From contig JANQNM010000100.1 of NCBI GenBank assembly GCA_028279625.1, positions 1-41,919 on the forward strand: a stretch of DNA of 41,919 nt, written 5' to 3'. Source of the DNA: Candidatus Nitrosopumilus sp. Lineage in GTDB: Archaea; Thermoproteota; Nitrososphaeria; Nitrososphaerales; Nitrosopumilaceae. The notes under the pieces are model-generated. The model searched no databases. It had not been told where the DNA came from and saw only the letters and a list, made by a program, of their open reading frames with translations. This document shows, piece after piece, positions 33,229-41,288 of this stretch. The position numbers were made by a program, and so were the translations under genes. Within the stretch, counting starts at the first letter, position 1. Each line of letters begins with the position of its first letter.

Positions 33229-34149
33229 TTACCTCTTTGGTACCATCGTATCCATCATTACTAACATCAAAACTCCACTTAGTGGAATAACTGCAAAAGT
33301 TAGAATATTCATTAGTGTAAGCAAACCAAATCCTGCAAGACTAGGACTCATAATTCCCATGATTGATAACATGATTACTGCAAGTAAAGGGAATACAATC
33401 AACAAAATTGTATAAATCTCTGCTACACTTCCAAGTGATTCTGTAGTTTTTTGCATGAGCATCTTTTTCTCTTCGAGTTGAACTTTTGCTGTTGCGTTAA
33501 AGTATTCTTTTAGGTCTCCTCCTGATTGAACAGTAATGATTGCCCCGTCAAGCAGTTCTGAATATGGTCCTACTGGAGTTCTATGAATCAAATCTTTGAT
33601 GGCTGTAATCAAATCCATTCCTAAAATGTCAATATTTCTTACAATGAATCTGGCATCCTTTACAATGTCTTCGTCAGTTTCTTCTTTTGCAATTGCTTTG
33701 AAAATTCCCTCTAAGGTTAAACCACTTGTAGCAAGTGTTGACATGTATCCAATAAAATGAGGAATTTCTTCTACAAGTTTTGCTGCTCTGTTTTTTACTC
33801 TGATGGATGGAATTAATTGCAAAATACCAAAAGTCATGCCAAAAACCATCAGTCCTGTTAATAATGGAAGAACAAAACCAATGCTTGCAGGCTGTATGTT
33901 TACAAACTGTAATGCCACGATTCCCATGATTGCTCCACATGCACCAGCAATCATACTGAAGAATACCATGCTAGCTACATAGACCTCAAATGGTATTGGC
34001 ATCATTGATTGTTTGATGGCTTTTTCCAGGTTGCCTAGTTTTGGATGCAGAAATTTTACATGATCATTTAGCATCTTGTAGCTAAAAACATGAATCTGTC
34101 CTACAGATTCTTCTTGTTTTTTCTTTTGTTTAGTTGAACTTAGTTTCAT
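33229..34149 (-). CDS. TadB/GspF-like pilus membrane protein
   Basis: A 306-residue protein of the type II secretion F family with spans near 56-80, 85-110 and two at the C-terminus, and a cytoplasmic domain (HFIGYMSTLATSGLTLEGIF, then TPVGPYSELLDGAIITVQSG). It starts two bases after the motor ATPase stop. Together with the protein at 32309 it should form the platform through which the ATPase drives pilin assembly. The C-terminus resembles that of the archaeal TadC-like proteins. Confidence 0.9.
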   Translation of the reverse strand: MKLSSTKQKKKQEESVGQIHVFSYKMLNDHVKFLHPKLGNLEKAIKQSMMPIPFEVYVASMVFFSMIAGACGAIMGIVALQFVNIQPASIGFVLPLLTGLMVFGMTFGILQLIPSIRVKNRAAKLVEEIPHFIGYMSTLATSGLTLEGIFKAIAKEETDEDIVKDARFIVRNIDILGMDLITAIKDLIHRTPVGPYSELLDGAIITVQSGGDLKEYFNATAKVQLEEKKMLMQKTTESLGSVAEIYTILLIVFPLLAVIMLSIMGIMSPSLAGFGLLTLMNILTFAVIPLSGVLMLVMMDTMVPKR

Positions 34150-34151
34150 TT

Positions 34152-35783
34152 CTAAATATTCAACCTCTTTCTTTCATAGAATCTTTCAGGATCTGCATAG
34201 TAATCCATAATGTTTGCAGTTACTTCCTTATGATCACGAATGTCATTTTTGACCATCCAATCTAATGCTGTTCTTCTTTTTGTAAGCTCATAGTTTATCT
34301 TCTCTTCAGTATCTCCATCTCTTTCTTGAATTTTCTTAAACACTACACTGTCTCCCATGTAATCATGTGTGTCTGTTTTTGGATTCCATTTGAAAATTTC
34401 ATGGGTTTTAATGTGTCCGGTGTTTTCGTCAATTCCATCAATCTCTGAAACCTGAATGATTCGTCTGGCAGATTTGTCCCCTACTCTGATTTTTAGTTGT
34501 AATGTAATCAAATCAAGACTATTTGCGATAAGTGCTTTAGGAACATCCATTGGTGATGAAGTCAATCTTGTCAATGTTGCATCAACTGAATCTGCGTGGA
34601 TTGATGAAAAACCTCCGTGACCAGTAGCCATTGCTTGGAACAATGTGTAAGCTTCACGCCCTCTTGTCTCTCCTACAATAATGATATCTGGTCTTTGTCG
34701 AAGGGCTGCTCGAAGAAGGTCAAATTGATTGATTTCACCAATTTGTGTATCTGTGAAATTTTGTCTTGAAACAGCTGGTATCCAATTCTCATGTGGCAAA
34801 TTCAATTCTTGAGTATCTTCAATACTGACTACTTTCTGGCCTGGTCTGATAAATGAGGCAAGAGCATTCAGTGCCGTAGTTTTTCCACTTGCAGTTCCTC
34901 CTGCAATTAGCATAGTTGCCCTTTTTTCTGCAAGATACCACATGAATGCTGCAATATCGATTGAAACTGTTCCAAATTTTATCAAATCTATAATTGTAAT
35001 AGGATCTGCTCTAAACCGTCTGATAGTAAATGTACTGCCTCTTTTTGTAATTTCATGACCTAATGTTAGATTGATTCTACTTCCATCAGGTAGTGATGCA
35101 TCAATAATTGGGTCTGCCATGGAAACATGTTTTCCACAGATATAAGCTGTTTTTCTTGCAAAATTGTTTAATTCTGCATCTTTTTCAAAAATGATGTTTG
35201 TTGGCATTGATTCATGTTCTCTGTGCCATATGTAGATTGGAATGTTTGTTCCATCACAACTAATTTCTTCTATCATATGGTCTCTCATTAACGGCTCTAT
35301 TCTTCCAAGATGTACAAAATCTCTTATTGCAAAATAATTTATTTTTGCAATATTTTTTGGTGGAATTTTTAGTCTGTATTTTTTTATCATTGATGCAATT
35401 TTCTTCTTTAATCTCCTTTCAGCATCTTTTTTTGATTTAATCTCATGCAGTGAAACACTGAGTTCAGTGATTAGTAATTTTTTGATTATCTCTAAGGCTT
35501 TTCTGTCTCGTTCAGTTAAGATTGGTTCAATTACTTGATACCTTAAACCCCCCTTTGCAGTTGGGTCTTTGATTATTCCTGCATGAATTTCTGTATTATC
35601 CCATTCTAATTTTGATAGTGTCATAAATTGTGGAATTTTAGGCTCATTTTCCACTTTGGAGATTGATTTTGCTAATGTACCTGTCTTTTCTTTTTTTGAA
35701 GAAATCATCTTTGCAAAATTCATTGGTTCTGTCTGAATTTTTTGTAACAGTGAAAACTTGTCTTTAACAATATTGAATTTCAA
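34152..35783 (-). CDS. Type IV pilus/secretion motor ATPase
   Basis: A 543-residue ATPase of the GspE/TadA/FlaI superfamily. The Walker A motif is GGTASGKTT (about 293), followed by SIEDTQELNLPHENW (the Asp box), the Walker B region RPDIIIVGETRGRE (about 364) and the His box GGFSSIHADS (about 388). It lacks the zinc-binding insert of PilB-type enzymes. It is the first gene of the leftward operon ATPase, TadB-like, TadC-like. The start appears to be TTG at 35783. A TGTTCA-type dyad lies 40-60 bases upstream in the divergent promoter region. Confidence 0.95.
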   Translation of the reverse strand: MKFNIVKDKFSLLQKIQTEPMNFAKMISSKKEKTGTLAKSISKVENEPKIPQFMTLSKLEWDNTEIHAGIIKDPTAKGGLRYQVIEPILTERDRKALEIIKKLLITELSVSLHEIKSKKDAERRLKKKIASMIKKYRLKIPPKNIAKINYFAIRDFVHLGRIEPLMRDHMIEEISCDGTNIPIYIWHREHESMPTNIIFEKDAELNNFARKTAYICGKHVSMADPIIDASLPDGSRINLTLGHEITKRGSTFTIRRFRADPITIIDLIKFGTVSIDIAAFMWYLAEKRATMLIAGGTASGKTTALNALASFIRPGQKVVSIEDTQELNLPHENWIPAVSRQNFTDTQIGEINQFDLLRAALRQRPDIIIVGETRGREAYTLFQAMATGHGGFSSIHADSVDATLTRLTSSPMDVPKALIANSLDLITLQLKIRVGDKSARRIIQVSEIDGIDENTGHIKTHEIFKWNPKTDTHDYMGDSVVFKKIQERDGDTEEKINYELTKRRTALDWMVKNDIRDHKEVTANIMDYYADPERFYERKRLNI

Positions 35784-35840: not shown

Positions 35841-35887
35841 CAATATTATTTTTGAAAAATTCACCCTTTATTGATTTTCAAGAAATC

Positions 35888-35907
35888 GTTTGTTCAATTG
35901 AACAAAC
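35888..35907. promoter_or_regulatory. TGTTCA-type operator before Asp/His-rich protein gene
   Basis: GTTTGTTCA and TGAACAAAC flank AT, so the whole 20 bases are a perfect palindrome. ATTTTTTTAAATC follows at once, and the GTG start at 35943 lies 35 bases after the dyad. The reading frame open to 35871 runs through this site, so the longer start is unlikely. Confidence 0.7.
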
Positions 35908-35942
35908 ATTTTTTTAAATCACAATTAGTCCTGCCATTTTAC

Positions 35943-36854
35943 GTGTTAAAGTCTCTTCCTCGTTTTGTGATTTTTGGTGCACTAGTTGGAATTTTGACAA
36001 TTGGTTTAGCCACAAGTACAATCGATGCTGGTGGAAAAGGCCATCACCTTGATAAATTAGTGTGTAATGCTGGTCAAGTTATGGTAGGAATCATGTATTC
36101 TGAATATGGTCATAATAAAATGTCCATAATTTGTCAGCCTGATTTGTTTGCAGCAGCAAATATGATTCCTTTACATTTTGAACAAAAAGGCATTATCTCT
36201 GTACCTGCAGATAGCTCAACATCAAATCTAGTCCAACTTGCAACCTGGGAAATTATCAAAGATCCTCAAGTTGAAAATAATGCCATATTGGGTTCTCTTG
36301 AAGGATTAACTGGTCATATGAAAAGAACTGTAGGAGGAGATGATAATGATGGTGATGTTGTTTATGGTTTCTTTAGCTCTATTGATGGAGTTCAATGGAG
36401 ATCCGAAGAAAGTTTCTCTACCCAATCTGCTGAATTTGTTCCAAAAGTATCTAGAGGAACAAATGAATTGATTCAATCTTTTGATGAGGAGACTGGAGAT
36501 CTTCTTGAGATGAAATATCTTTCATTTGGCGTTCATAGTTCTGATAATGCTGCTGGAGAAATCAAGGATGTTTCAGGAACTGTAGTAGTAACTTTGCCTG
36601 TAGGTTATTCAATTCAGCTTATGGAGGATGAACCAGAACCTCCTATAGGTGATGAAGATAACTGTGATAAAAAATGGAAGAAGTACTATCATGATGGATA
36701 TGAAAACAAATGGAAATCATATGATGATGACGATGATGATGACAGATGGCATCATGATGATGATGATGATGATGACTCAAAATGTCCTCCACACCACGAT
36801 GACGATGATGACAAATGGAACAAATGGAAACACCACGATGACGATGATGACTGA
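35943..36854 (+). CDS. Secreted Asp/His-rich protein
   Basis: A protein of about 303 residues with an N-terminal signal peptide (MLKSLPRFVIFGALVGILTI, then GLATSTIDA), a mature domain of about 215 residues, and an acidic tail. The tail has five runs of Asp (five to seven each) separated by HH, W and K motifs such as RWHHDD and KWNKWKHH. Such tails bind calcium or transition metals. I moved the start to GTG 35943 because the TTG at 35871 lies before the operator dyad and promoter. The gene is divergent from the pilus motor operon and carries its own TGTTCA-type dyad, so it is probably co-regulated with the pilus genes. No family recognised for the middle domain. Confidence 0.75.
   Translation: MLKSLPRFVIFGALVGILTIGLATSTIDAGGKGHHLDKLVCNAGQVMVGIMYSEYGHNKMSIICQPDLFAAANMIPLHFEQKGIISVPADSSTSNLVQLATWEIIKDPQVENNAILGSLEGLTGHMKRTVGGDDNDGDVVYGFFSSIDGVQWRSEESFSTQSAEFVPKVSRGTNELIQSFDEETGDLLEMKYLSFGVHSSDNAAGEIKDVSGTVVVTLPVGYSIQLMEDEPEPPIGDEDNCDKKWKKYYHDGYENKWKSYDDDDDDDRWHHDDDDDDDSKCPPHHDDDDDKWNKWKHHDDDDD
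36792..36851 (+). repeat. Direct repeat in the Asp/His tail
   Basis: A 21-base unit beginning CACCACGATGACGATG occurs at 36792-36812 and again at 36831-36851, a 39-base period, encoding HHDDDDD both times. The upstream tail has further GAT/GAC triplet runs (36721-36775). Such tracts change length by slippage. Confidence 0.7.
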
Positions 36855-37008: not shown

Positions 37009-38229
37009 ATGATGTTTAGAAAAAAATCTCAATCTGCAGACACAAAAATGGAAAGTAAGAAAAATAAATATTCATCCACAATGAATGATTATGCATCCGT
37101 TTTTTCAGAGTCTTTAGATGAATCTGAACCTATACCAATTGAGAATGATTTAGAACAAGAATTAATTCCTATAGAAGAACCTGATTTTCCTGAACCCTCA
37201 TCTAGCAAATCAGTAAAACTAATTCAAGAAATTCAAAATCTTGATGATAAAACTATCAAACCATTCATTGATTACAATGAAGGGAAATTATTCTATCCTA
37301 TATTATCCAAAATTGGTGAGACTCAAGATAATGTTGCTTACTTGGATGGTTTAGTTTCTGATGGAATTTTAGAAAAAAATGTCTTTGAAAAATTGATTGT
37401 TTGTCCTCTTCATCCTGATACATTTAGTTCCAGCGTTCGCCTATACTGTCCAAAATGCCATTCTATGGATGTTGAAAAAATGAATTTGTTTGAGCACAAA
37501 AAATGTGGATATATTACAGAAAGCAGCAATTTTGATTTTACATCAAACGGGAATCTTCAGTGCCCCTCTTGTAAGAAACTAATCACAAATTTTGAGAAAG
37601 AAATACGAGTTCCAGCAATGTGGTATCAATGCAATGATTGTACTGAAAAATTTGATAATGCTGTAATCAAACTACATTGTAGAAAGCATGACCATGATTT
37701 TGACACAAATTCTGGTCAATTTGTAACTACTTACAGTTACAAACTAAAAAATTCTGAAGTCTCCATGAATTCTGATACCAGTCAAATTAAAGATGATCTT
37801 CTAAAATTACTTGAAGGATTCAATTTTGCAACAAAACAGAGTGTCTCAATTAAAGGAAAAAGTGGAAATGTTCATGAAATCCCTATCTATGCAAAACGTT
37901 CAAACACAAATGAAACTCTTGCAATTTTCATAAAGAACCAAACAGATGGAATTGATCAAACAGAAATGAATTCTGTCTTAGTTCCAAAATTAGATGTAGA
38001 CCCAACTCATACAATGTTTTTGACCACTTCTGGAATTAATGATGGTGTAGAAAATCTTGCTAAGCATTATGGCATCAATCTTATTTCTAATTCTGATGCA
38101 TCACAAATAATTTCACAAGTTGAAAGTTTTGTATCCAAATGGCACTCTAAAAACTCTAAAAAAGAAAAACCATCTTCTCTAACATCTTTGATGTCTGATT
38201 TCAAACTAAAAAAAGGTGGTAAAAACTGA
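37009..38229 (+). CDS. Zinc-ribbon protein with Mrr-like C-terminal domain
   Basis: A 406-residue cytoplasmic protein. After an acidic low-complexity N-terminus (to about 65) comes a cysteine-rich region: LYCPKC, then HKKCGY, QCPSCK, YQCNDC and LHCRKHDHD (about 145-230), which should bind two zinc ions. It recalls the thaumarchaeal output domain TackOD1 as I remember it; this was not searched. The C-terminal part (VHEIPIYAKRSNTNETLAIF, then TMFLTTSGINDGVENLAKHY) resembles the Mrr-type endonuclease fold, but a complete catalytic set is not evident. ATG at 37009 or 37012 follows GTGAGG; a TTG at 37003 is less likely. It is first in the pilin operon and its stop overlaps the next start. Confidence 0.75.
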   Translation: MMFRKKSQSADTKMESKKNKYSSTMNDYASVFSESLDESEPIPIENDLEQELIPIEEPDFPEPSSSKSVKLIQEIQNLDDKTIKPFIDYNEGKLFYPILSKIGETQDNVAYLDGLVSDGILEKNVFEKLIVCPLHPDTFSSSVRLYCPKCHSMDVEKMNLFEHKKCGYITESSNFDFTSNGNLQCPSCKKLITNFEKEIRVPAMWYQCNDCTEKFDNAVIKLHCRKHDHDFDTNSGQFVTTYSYKLKNSEVSMNSDTSQIKDDLLKLLEGFNFATKQSVSIKGKSGNVHEIPIYAKRSNTNETLAIFIKNQTDGIDQTEMNSVLVPKLDVDPTHTMFLTTSGINDGVENLAKHYGINLISNSDASQIISQVESFVSKWHSKNSKKEKPSSLTSLMSDFKLKKGGKN

Positions 38230-38753
38230 ATGCTTCCAAAAAACCTGGACTAGAAAAAAGACGTGCAGTAAGTCAAGTAATGGGCAGTCTTGTTATATTA
38301 GGAATTGTCAGCTCTGTTGGTTCTGTAATTTTGTTTAACGGAATGGATAGTATTAGTGCATTTACATATGATTTGTCATTTCATGAAAAATCAAAAAATC
38401 AAATCCATAGAGAAGATATTGTGTTTGAACATGTACGTTTTGAGCCTAATACTGACAACATGTCAATCGATTTGGCAAATATAGGCACAGTGGAATCTAC
38501 AATTTCCACAATTACAATTTTGAAGATTGACAGCCAAGAAATTGTTGCCAATTGGGTTGAGATAAATCAATCAATTCCAATCAAAGAAAATCAACAAATT
38601 TCTCTTGATAATTTAGATGATGCTGAAATAATCCTAAATCCACCTACTTCAATTTGGAATGATGCTAATTATCTTAATTCAGAATATAAAATTTCATTAA
38701 CAACTACTCGAGGCAATTTCTTCTCTACAATTGCCAGTCCGTTTAATACATAG
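38226..38753 (+). CDS. Pilin-like protein with class III signal, probable CTG start
   Basis: A 175-residue protein with an archaeal prepilin signal: EKRRAVSQVMGSLVILGIV, cleavage expected after Ala, then a hydrophobic helix and an extracellular beta domain. The first ATG in frame, 38280, lies inside the hydrophobic core and would destroy the signal. Upstream, between the in-frame stop at 38220 and that ATG, there is no ATG, GTG or TTG; CTG at 38226 is the only near-cognate candidate at a sensible position. It overlaps the previous stop as CTGA, in the position of a usual ATGA junction. The gene is followed by two more pilin-like genes. Confidence 0.75.
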   Translation: MNASKKPGLEKRRAVSQVMGSLVILGIVSSVGSVILFNGMDSISAFTYDLSFHEKSKNQIHREDIVFEHVRFEPNTDNMSIDLANIGTVESTISTITILKIDSQEIVANWVEINQSIPIKENQQISLDNLDDAEIILNPPTSIWNDANYLNSEYKISLTTTRGNFFSTIASPFNT

Positions 38754-38763
38754 GTGATTAAAG

Positions 38764-39465
38764 ATGTCAAAGAAAATTAAATCAAATTCTCGTTTAAGAA
38801 AAAGACGTGGAGTAACTGATGTAATTAGTACAATGTTGCTCATGGCAGTAACCGTTACTGGTGCAAGCACTTTAACATTTTTTATGAATGACGCATTTGT
38901 TTCAGGCAATCTTAGCTCTGTAAACACACTTGAATCTTCATCATTGAATGTTTTGCTTTTAGCTTATGATACAAGAGATTCATCTTCTTTACTAACATTG
39001 ACTGATGTTGATAATGAAAATACTGTAAATTCATTTCTGTGTGCTTCGACATGTAGTAGTTCTACAAATAGAATTCCTGATAATGGTGGAACTGAATTTA
39101 TTGTATTACAACTTCAAAATAACGGCATTGATCCAATTTATCTTGAAAATGTTATCTTAAATGGAGTTAATCATGAATGGGATCCTGGAACGTCTGGAAT
39201 TCAACTTGATGCTTCTGCTGATGATTTAGTTGGCCCTGATAGAAGTTATCCTTCTGATGGAATGTATTCAATTTTGCCAGTTGGGTCTAGTCCAATCATT
39301 CAAAATGAAAATATCCAAATTTCTAATGGTCAAATTGTAAATGTTCTTGTAAAACTTGGATCTGATGACTCTGATATTCAAATTAACAAAGGAATTCACG
39401 TTTTGTTAAACACCGGCAGTGTACAGTCTGTTGAATTTTTGATTGAGAGTGGTAATGCCCAATGA
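38764..39465 (+). CDS. Pilin-like protein with class III signal
   Basis: A 233-residue protein with the prepilin signal LRKRRGVTDVISTMLLMAVT (about residues 11-30), cleavage after Gly, then the rest of the hydrophobic helix and a beta-rich extracellular domain (DNGGTEFIVLQLQNNGIDPI, then IYLENVIL). Two cysteines (FLCASTCS) may form a disulfide outside. GGTGATT lies upstream as a ribosome site. Its stop overlaps the next start (ATGA), so it is co-translated with the large pilin-like protein. Confidence 0.88.
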   Translation: MSKKIKSNSRLRKRRGVTDVISTMLLMAVTVTGASTLTFFMNDAFVSGNLSSVNTLESSSLNVLLLAYDTRDSSSLLTLTDVDNENTVNSFLCASTCSSSTNRIPDNGGTEFIVLQLQNNGIDPIYLENVILNGVNHEWDPGTSGIQLDASADDLVGPDRSYPSDGMYSILPVGSSPIIQNENIQISNGQIVNVLVKLGSDDSDIQINKGIHVLLNTGSVQSVEFLIESGNAQ

Positions 39466-41288
39466 ATGTCAAAAAAGTCTCGTTTGAGCCTAAAAATAGG
39501 CGTGGATTGTCTTCAGTTGTTGGGGCATTATTTTTCACAGTTTTGATGGTTGCAGGATTTTCTGTTTTAAGCTTGGCATTAGATGCTCAGACTGATATTG
39601 TAACTACTCAAAGAATGGTTTCAGATGTAGAAATAAAAAAACAACAAGAACAATTTGGAATTATAGCATCAGTTGATGGGAATAAAATTCTAGATGTTTC
39701 AATAAATAATCAAGGACAAAATTCTGCAGAAATTTCAAGTGTTTGGATTGTAAACAAAACTTTGCCAAATCAACCTGTTCAGAGATTTGAAGTAAATTAT
39801 GATGATGCGTACATTCCATCTGGATTTACTTCCAACATTTTAGAATCTCAAACACTACAAATGGTTGATGATACTTATGACATCAAAGTTGTTTCTGCAT
39901 TAGGAACTATCAAAATTATAGAATTAACCGTTGGAAGTGGTGGTGGAGGTGGTTCAGGATTACGTGCTGAATTAATTACAGATCCTCCTGACGTGATTAT
40001 TGGACAAAATGTTACAGTTGCATTGATGGTAACAAATACTGGAATTGATACTATAAACAATGTTCAACCCGATCCAATTACATTTACTCCAACTGGAAGT
40101 GGTGCTGCTACTGCTTTTTCGTCTCATACTCCAGATTCTGTTGATTTGAATGGAGGTGCTTCTGTATTGTTCTCATGGGATTATCAAGTTACAGGAGATA
40201 GTGGCGATGAACTTTCTTTTTCATCAATAGCTAGAGGTGATGGGGCAGCAAGTAACACTGTATCTGATATTAGCATATTACGTGAACCGACTGATGGTGG
40301 TTCAGGAGGCAGTGGAGGAGAAGAAATTGTTGTGAGAAATGAATTATTTGGTAAACCTCAAATCTTTATGATTTTTCCAAATCCTATAGGTTGGGATAAC
40401 AATAACAGAGCACTTTGGGGTGTGATGGTAGCAAATCCTACTGATCAGCCAATAGAAGTTTCTAAAGTTGCAATAGTTGCAATGTCTCCAAGAGCAACCT
40501 CAAGTGATAAGATTTTTGCACCTGAATGTGAAGATCAATCCAGTCCTCTTGATCCTAGAACAGTTTCTCCTACCACAGACCGTTGGTCTTGTCCTGAAAG
40601 TAACCAATTACAATGGAAAAATACAAACAATCCTCAGGTAATTCAACCAAGATCAGTTCATCCATTTTTAGTAGAAATTGGAACTGAATCAATAGGAAGT
40701 ACAACTGGAGAAGCTAATCTGATTCCAATTCAAGTAACTGTTGCAAGTACACTAGGTCAATTTGGAAAAGCAGGTTATCTTAGTACAATGGCTGAAGAAA
40801 ACGTTGCAATGCCAAATGTTTTTCTTTCTACTGCTGTTGGAACAACAAACTCTGCAAACATTATAGGTACTGTGACAGGAATTACTGAAGGAGCGTCTGT
40901 AACTTTTAATGCATCTATAGGTGACTTTGATACTGGTTCTGGAAATGAAATAAAATCTGATTCAAGATTGATAATCAACATTCCAAAAGATTGGACCTAT
41001 ACTGGAATTAACAGCTTTACAGGATTTGATAATCCCCCTGATGTGCAAACTTTTCCTGATGGTTCAACACAAATCATTGGAACTTTATCAAATGATCTAA
41101 CTGGAAGTGGCGATGTTGCAAGAACAATACAATTTACAGCAACTGCCCCTGATGTAACAAATGCAAAAATGTATGTAATGCACATCCTTGCTGACGGCAT
41201 TGCTACTGGTTCATCAAGCAATAATTACACCATAGGACCCCTTTCCGAATCTGTTTTACAAGTTTGTCCAACAAGTGGTTGTCCATAA
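39462..41288 (+). CDS. Large pilin-like protein with extracellular beta domains
   Basis: A 608-residue protein with the class III signal NRRGLSSVVGALFFTVLMVA (about 12-31), cleavage after Gly. After a domain of about 125 residues comes a Gly/Ser linker GSGGGGGSG (about 157), then a CARDB-like beta domain (DVIIGQNVTVALMVTNTGID), a second linker GGSGGSGGEE (about 278) and a large beta-rich C-terminal part (to 608) with CPESN and a final CPTSGCP. This is far longer than usual pilins (100-250), so it may be a tip or adhesin subunit. ATG overlaps the previous stop. Confidence 0.85.
   Translation: MNVKKVSFEPKNRRGLSSVVGALFFTVLMVAGFSVLSLALDAQTDIVTTQRMVSDVEIKKQQEQFGIIASVDGNKILDVSINNQGQNSAEISSVWIVNKTLPNQPVQRFEVNYDDAYIPSGFTSNILESQTLQMVDDTYDIKVVSALGTIKIIELTVGSGGGGGSGLRAELITDPPDVIIGQNVTVALMVTNTGIDTINNVQPDPITFTPTGSGAATAFSSHTPDSVDLNGGASVLFSWDYQVTGDSGDELSFSSIARGDGAASNTVSDISILREPTDGGSGGSGGEEIVVRNELFGKPQIFMIFPNPIGWDNNNRALWGVMVANPTDQPIEVSKVAIVAMSPRATSSDKIFAPECEDQSSPLDPRTVSPTTDRWSCPESNQLQWKNTNNPQVIQPRSVHPFLVEIGTESIGSTTGEANLIPIQVTVASTLGQFGKAGYLSTMAEENVAMPNVFLSTAVGTTNSANIIGTVTGITEGASVTFNASIGDFDTGSGNEIKSDSRLIINIPKDWTYTGINSFTGFDNPPDVQTFPDGSTQIIGTLSNDLTGSGDVARTIQFTATAPDVTNAKMYVMHILADGIATGSSSNNYTIGPLSESVLQVCPTSGCP

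Follow-up and report, generated by a model that had tools for sequence, protein, structure and literature searches.

Archaeal type IV pilins with a class III signal have been described, and Nitrosopumilus maritimus SCM1 has been reported to have no secretion ATPase (PMC4858521). The start codons accepted for archaea are AUG, GUG and UUG (PMC7531240). Starting at CTG is uncommon but has precedent: CUG makes up 0.024% of bacterial starts, and in E. coli it gives 0.86% of the output obtained with AUG, compared with 58.4% for GUG and 29.8% for UUG (PMC11497404); a switch from GUG to CUG was found at 1 of 5,080 ancestral GUG starts (PMC5622118). In both archaea and bacteria, coupled genes are most often arranged with a four-base overlap, and such overlaps support termination–reinitiation (PMC10666635). 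A limited search of the literature found no archaeal CUG start anchored by orthologues. Here we describe a candidate of this kind, which opens a pilin-like gene of a Candidatus Nitrosopumilus sp.

A predicted type IV pilus-type locus

The window, by which we mean the whole 41,919-nucleotide stretch analysed, is contig C26 of a 1.47-Mb genome represented by a single assembly of 119 contigs. In the named collection, this genome is closest to Nitrosopumilus assemblies. Judged by its predicted genes (Table 1), the locus is of the type IV pilus type. Inspection of the alignment revealed a class III signal in the pilin, consisting of the charged leader EKRRA, a cleavage site and then the hydrophobic VSQVMGSLVILGIVSSVGSVILF. 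The protein had no Pfam match at an E value of 0.1, and the pilin N-terminal model was not matched; we therefore call it pilin-like on the basis of the class III signal, its orthologues and the neighbouring genes. Two further pilin-like genes follow it and, as the initial annotation had stated, this pair uses an ATGA overlap. A distant second pilin-like relative is found in the same genome (G000:C89:92-361; 25% identity, E = 5.7e-5). The window also encodes a predicted protein with Asp/His-rich repeats that had no Pfam match; it may be a surface protein that binds metals or calcium.

Table 1 Features of the pilin locus, with positions in the window
Feature	Position	Strand	Evidence and remarks
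Pilus platform protein (T2SSF)	33229–34149	−	PF00482, E = 4.2e-14
Secretion/assembly ATPase (T2SSE, PilB3-like)	34152–35783	−	PF00437, E = 1.9e-43
Asp/His-repeat predicted protein	35871–36854	+	327 aa; N-terminal hydrophobic stretch; C-terminal repeats (DDDDDD, HHDDDDDDD)
TackOD1-domain protein gene	37009–38229	+	PF18551 TackOD1, E = 1.6e-26; stop TGA 38227–38229
SD-like GGTGG	38215–38219	+	Spaced 6 nt from CTG; pairing with archaeal 16S tail estimated at about −8.9 kcal/mol (computed with a generic tail, which may differ from this genome's own)
Type IV pilin-like gene	38226–38753	+	175 aa, LNASKKPGLEKRRA, cleavage site, VSQVMGSLVILGIVSSVGS...; full-length genus orthologues, 68–77% identity
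CTGA overlap	38226–38229	+	Putative pilin CTG start shares bases with upstream-gene TGA
Out-of-frame ATG mini-ORF	38230–38253	+	MLPKNLD*; A AAA AAC at 38238–38244
Second pilin-like gene	38764–39465	+	ATG start after GGTGAT; Pilin_N E = 0.049, below cut-off
Third pilin-like gene	39462–41288	+	Class III-like N-terminus; ATGA overlap with second (39462–39465)

The CTGA junction

Re-reading the junction bore out every coordinate of the initial annotation. TAA at 38220–38222 closes the pilin frame and is followed by AAA and by CTG at 38226–38228, after which the frame runs AAT GCT TCC AAA AAA CCT GGA CTA GAA AAA AGA CGT GCA GTA AGT CAA GTA before it reaches ATG 38280. CTG 38226 had been called the only plausible start before that ATG, and it is indeed the sole in-frame codon of this interval within one base of ATG; no in-frame ATG, GTG or TTG between TAA 38220 and ATG 38280 would preserve the conserved pilin N-terminus. 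A start farther upstream in the frame was ruled out, as TAA 38220 blocks it. The upstream TackOD1 frame, which begins at ATG 37009 or possibly at TTG 37003, terminates AAA AAC TGA, so that the CTG shares bases with this stop, as claimed, in the overlap CTGA.

ATG 38280 is the first in-frame ATG and would be the choice of a gene caller restricted to ATG, GTG and TTG. The initial annotation placed the class III signal upstream of this codon, and a start there would indeed lose EKRRA/VSQV (the slash marks the cleavage site), leaving a protein with neither charged leader nor cleavage site. KRRA/VSQV is conserved in all orthologues, several of which have no ATG at the equivalent of 38280 (ATA or ATT in L003, L013 and L015). 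We rejected this start because it loses a signal common to all orthologues, and we find it scarcely credible.

A further ATG, which the initial annotation had not mentioned, lies out of frame at 38230, just after the TGA. Initiation there could reach the pilin through a −1 frameshift on the heptamer A AAA AAC, which falls in the right phase within the seven-codon mini-ORF, and the product, MLPKNPGLEKRRAVSQV, would retain the full signal. The orthologues, however, start at NTG in the pilin frame itself without any shift, and the arrangement is not conserved; in most orthologues the letters of ATG 38230 are produced, as AAATG, by a conserved Asn codon, and this A-rich genome contains many copies of AAAAAAC (361 in 0.9 Mb of strand), the one here lying on a Lys-Lys stretch. 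We regard such a frameshift as highly improbable. Entry into the pilin frame by read-through or frameshifting out of TackOD1 was also disfavoured, because the orthologues carry their own start codon at this point.

Orthologues start at the equivalent codon

We compared the junction with those of 19 other Nitrosopumilus loci (L003–L018, L028, L039 and L096), in all of which a TackOD1 orthologue sits upstream of the pilin. The codon equivalent to CTG 38226 is GTG in 13 of the 19 (L004–L007, L010–L015, L018, L028 and L096), ATG in four (L009, L016, L017 and L039) and TTG in two (L003 and L008), and CTG in none of them. The orthologue comparison suggested by the initial annotation, which had asked for ATG, thus gives a canonical start in 19 of 19 loci and ATG itself in 4 of 19. 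Because every orthologue has GTG, ATG or TTG here, the position of the CTG is more than chance. In 17 of the 19 orthologues the start and the TackOD1 stop codon TGA share a four-base NTGA, and in nearly all loci the start lies 6 nt after GGTGG. As the orthologues share the codon position, the stop–start overlap and the upstream SD-like GGTGG, sequence comparison supports the proposed pilin start at 38226 well. The initial annotation had expected ATGA where CTGA stands; the NTGA start–stop overlap was confirmed, but the tetramer to be expected is mostly GTGA.

The type of overlap can vary while the start position is kept, with an 8-base overlap in L012 (GTGAGTAA) and a 1-base overlap in L015 (TAGTG). 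In the closest match, L011, the leader is the same up to the start codon, where AAAAAAAGGTGGTAAAAA-GTGA stands in place of the CTGA of the window (AAAAAAAGGTGGTAAAAAGTGA in L011 versus AAAAAAAGGTGGTAAAAACTGA in the window). When 95 genomes were scanned for the pattern GGTGGTAAAAANTGAR, only eight matches came up; those at the pilin locus were ATGA in G003, GTGA in G032, G055 and G034, and CTGA in the window genome only, and the others lay elsewhere.

The whole CUG claim hangs on one base in one assembly. No second sequence of the window's species was found in the relatives' collection, the genus genomes or the viral contigs, other species carrying other NTG codons, and the viral contigs held no second copy of the junction. 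The true codon could be GTG, TTG or ATG if the base at 38226 came from a minor strain variant or from an error of consensus or assembly: a single base is decisive, it comes from one fragmented species assembly (119 contigs), and CUG starts are so rare that errors compete with them. We nevertheless consider this decidedly unlikely, since an isolated substitution error at exactly 38226 is improbable a priori and there is no indel or broken frame nearby.

Codon history and constraint

The tree built from TackOD1 and pilin leaves many forks unresolved; within it, the smallest group with good support to include the window comprises six loci with GTG, one with TTG and the window with CTG. Going by these codons, the ancestral start was probably GTG, not ATG, and a single transversion (G to C) is the simplest account of the CTG. 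The same change turns the last TackOD1 residue from Lys to Asn, and Asn is likewise found in L003 and L008.

The pilin gene is full length, its frame is intact and it keeps every invariant column of its orthologues. Compared with genus orthologues at roughly 68–77% protein identity, its dN is about 0.14–0.21 and its dS exceeds 1, values that point to long-standing constraint, although a very recent loss would be invisible to this measure. The pilin–TackOD1 pair is patchy within Nitrosopumilus, and the locus was probably gained or lost often.

It is possible, if unlikely, that the C is real and that the start codon has been lost, so that little or no pilin is translated by this strain, the gene being a recent knock-down or an early pseudogene. 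Measured CUG starts are very weak (PMC11497404), and gene-wide constraint mirrors long-term history and is blind to recent loss. The pilin would also appear dispensable, given that only roughly one in five of the searched Nitrosopumilus genomes keep it (19 of 95 at E = 1e-20, its own genome included). Arguing against loss, the frame is free of decay and few SD-like leaders in the set are as strong. Taken jointly, a consensus error and an allele that is lost or lowered in output have an appreciable, though clearly minor, chance of being correct.

CTG as a candidate start codon in this genome

In a 450-kb sample of this genome that included the window, we surveyed long frames terminated by TGA for an overlapping NTG that opens at least 100 codons. 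The first base at these NTGA junctions was A in 17 cases, T in 7, G in 1 and C in 1, the last being this pilin, whereas C was common in the null set (21 of 80). CTG is therefore no routine overlap start in this genome. In a relative, a single CTG case (L084) was judged probably due to chance; 7, 10 and 27 codons further on it has canonical starts.

Several observations count against a CUG start. Its output in E. coli is only 0.86% of that of AUG (PMC11497404), no other genome of the genus set carries CTG at this codon, this CTGA junction is the only one in the 450 kb surveyed, and the genome encodes an intact aIF1, a factor that acts against unusual start codons. Because aIF1 is intact, we also rejected its loss as a source of relaxed initiation. 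The SD-like duplex is as stable as that of L011 and is exceeded in the orthologue set only by that of L039. Such a strong duplex may help initiation, although GGTGG, which is common to nearly all orthologue junctions, also encodes a conserved Gly-Gly of the upstream protein.

On balance, our best reading is that CTG 38226 is a real, rare and probably weak CUG start that operates by termination–reinitiation. We think it probable that the pilin starts here, by reinitiation at a CUG that arose from an ancestral GTG, with a yield that is probably lowered. Ribosomes would end the TackOD1 gene at its TGA, held by the SD-like GGTGG 6 nt upstream, and would then use the usual initiator Met-tRNA to restart at the CUG overlapping this stop. 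The predicted product is a methionine-initiated prepilin, MNASKKPGLEKRRA, which would be cut before VSQV. The one G-to-C change from the ancestral GTG would probably have brought pilin yield below that obtained from GUG.

Discussion

A broader proposal, which we put forward as speculation and think unlikely, is that termination–reinitiation at overlaps in these archaea tolerates any NTG, so that CUG, though poor for fresh initiation, would be usable, or tuned down, for a minor pilin. Orthologue-anchored archaeal CUG starts are scarce, and the loci compared here offer a natural test: the 19 relatives have A, G or T as the first base of one overlap codon, the window adds C, and the surrounding sequence hardly changes. 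Such natural variation could show whether coupled reinitiation relaxes the choice of start codon. The junction also matters for annotation, because gene callers that accept only ATG, GTG and TTG would truncate or miss this pilin.

The locus resembles three described systems. With archaeal type IV pilins that carry a class III signal (PMC4858521), it shares KRRA followed by the hydrophobic VSQVMGSLVILGIVSSVGS, as well as nearby T2SSE and T2SSF genes; it differs in that the window pilin matches no Pfam pilin model and the locus is patchy in Nitrosopumilus. Like the CUG starts of other prokaryotes (PMC11497404, PMC5622118), the CTG stands at a start defined by orthologues, one base away from GTG. 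Here, however, the host is an ammonia-oxidising archaeon and the CTG, whose use we infer, lies inside a four-base stop–start overlap. The ATGA and GTGA overlaps of Haloferax volcanii and E. coli (PMC10666635) have the same geometry, with two serial genes and an SD-like motif upstream, whereas at this junction, where coupling is putative, the first base is C and not A, G or T.
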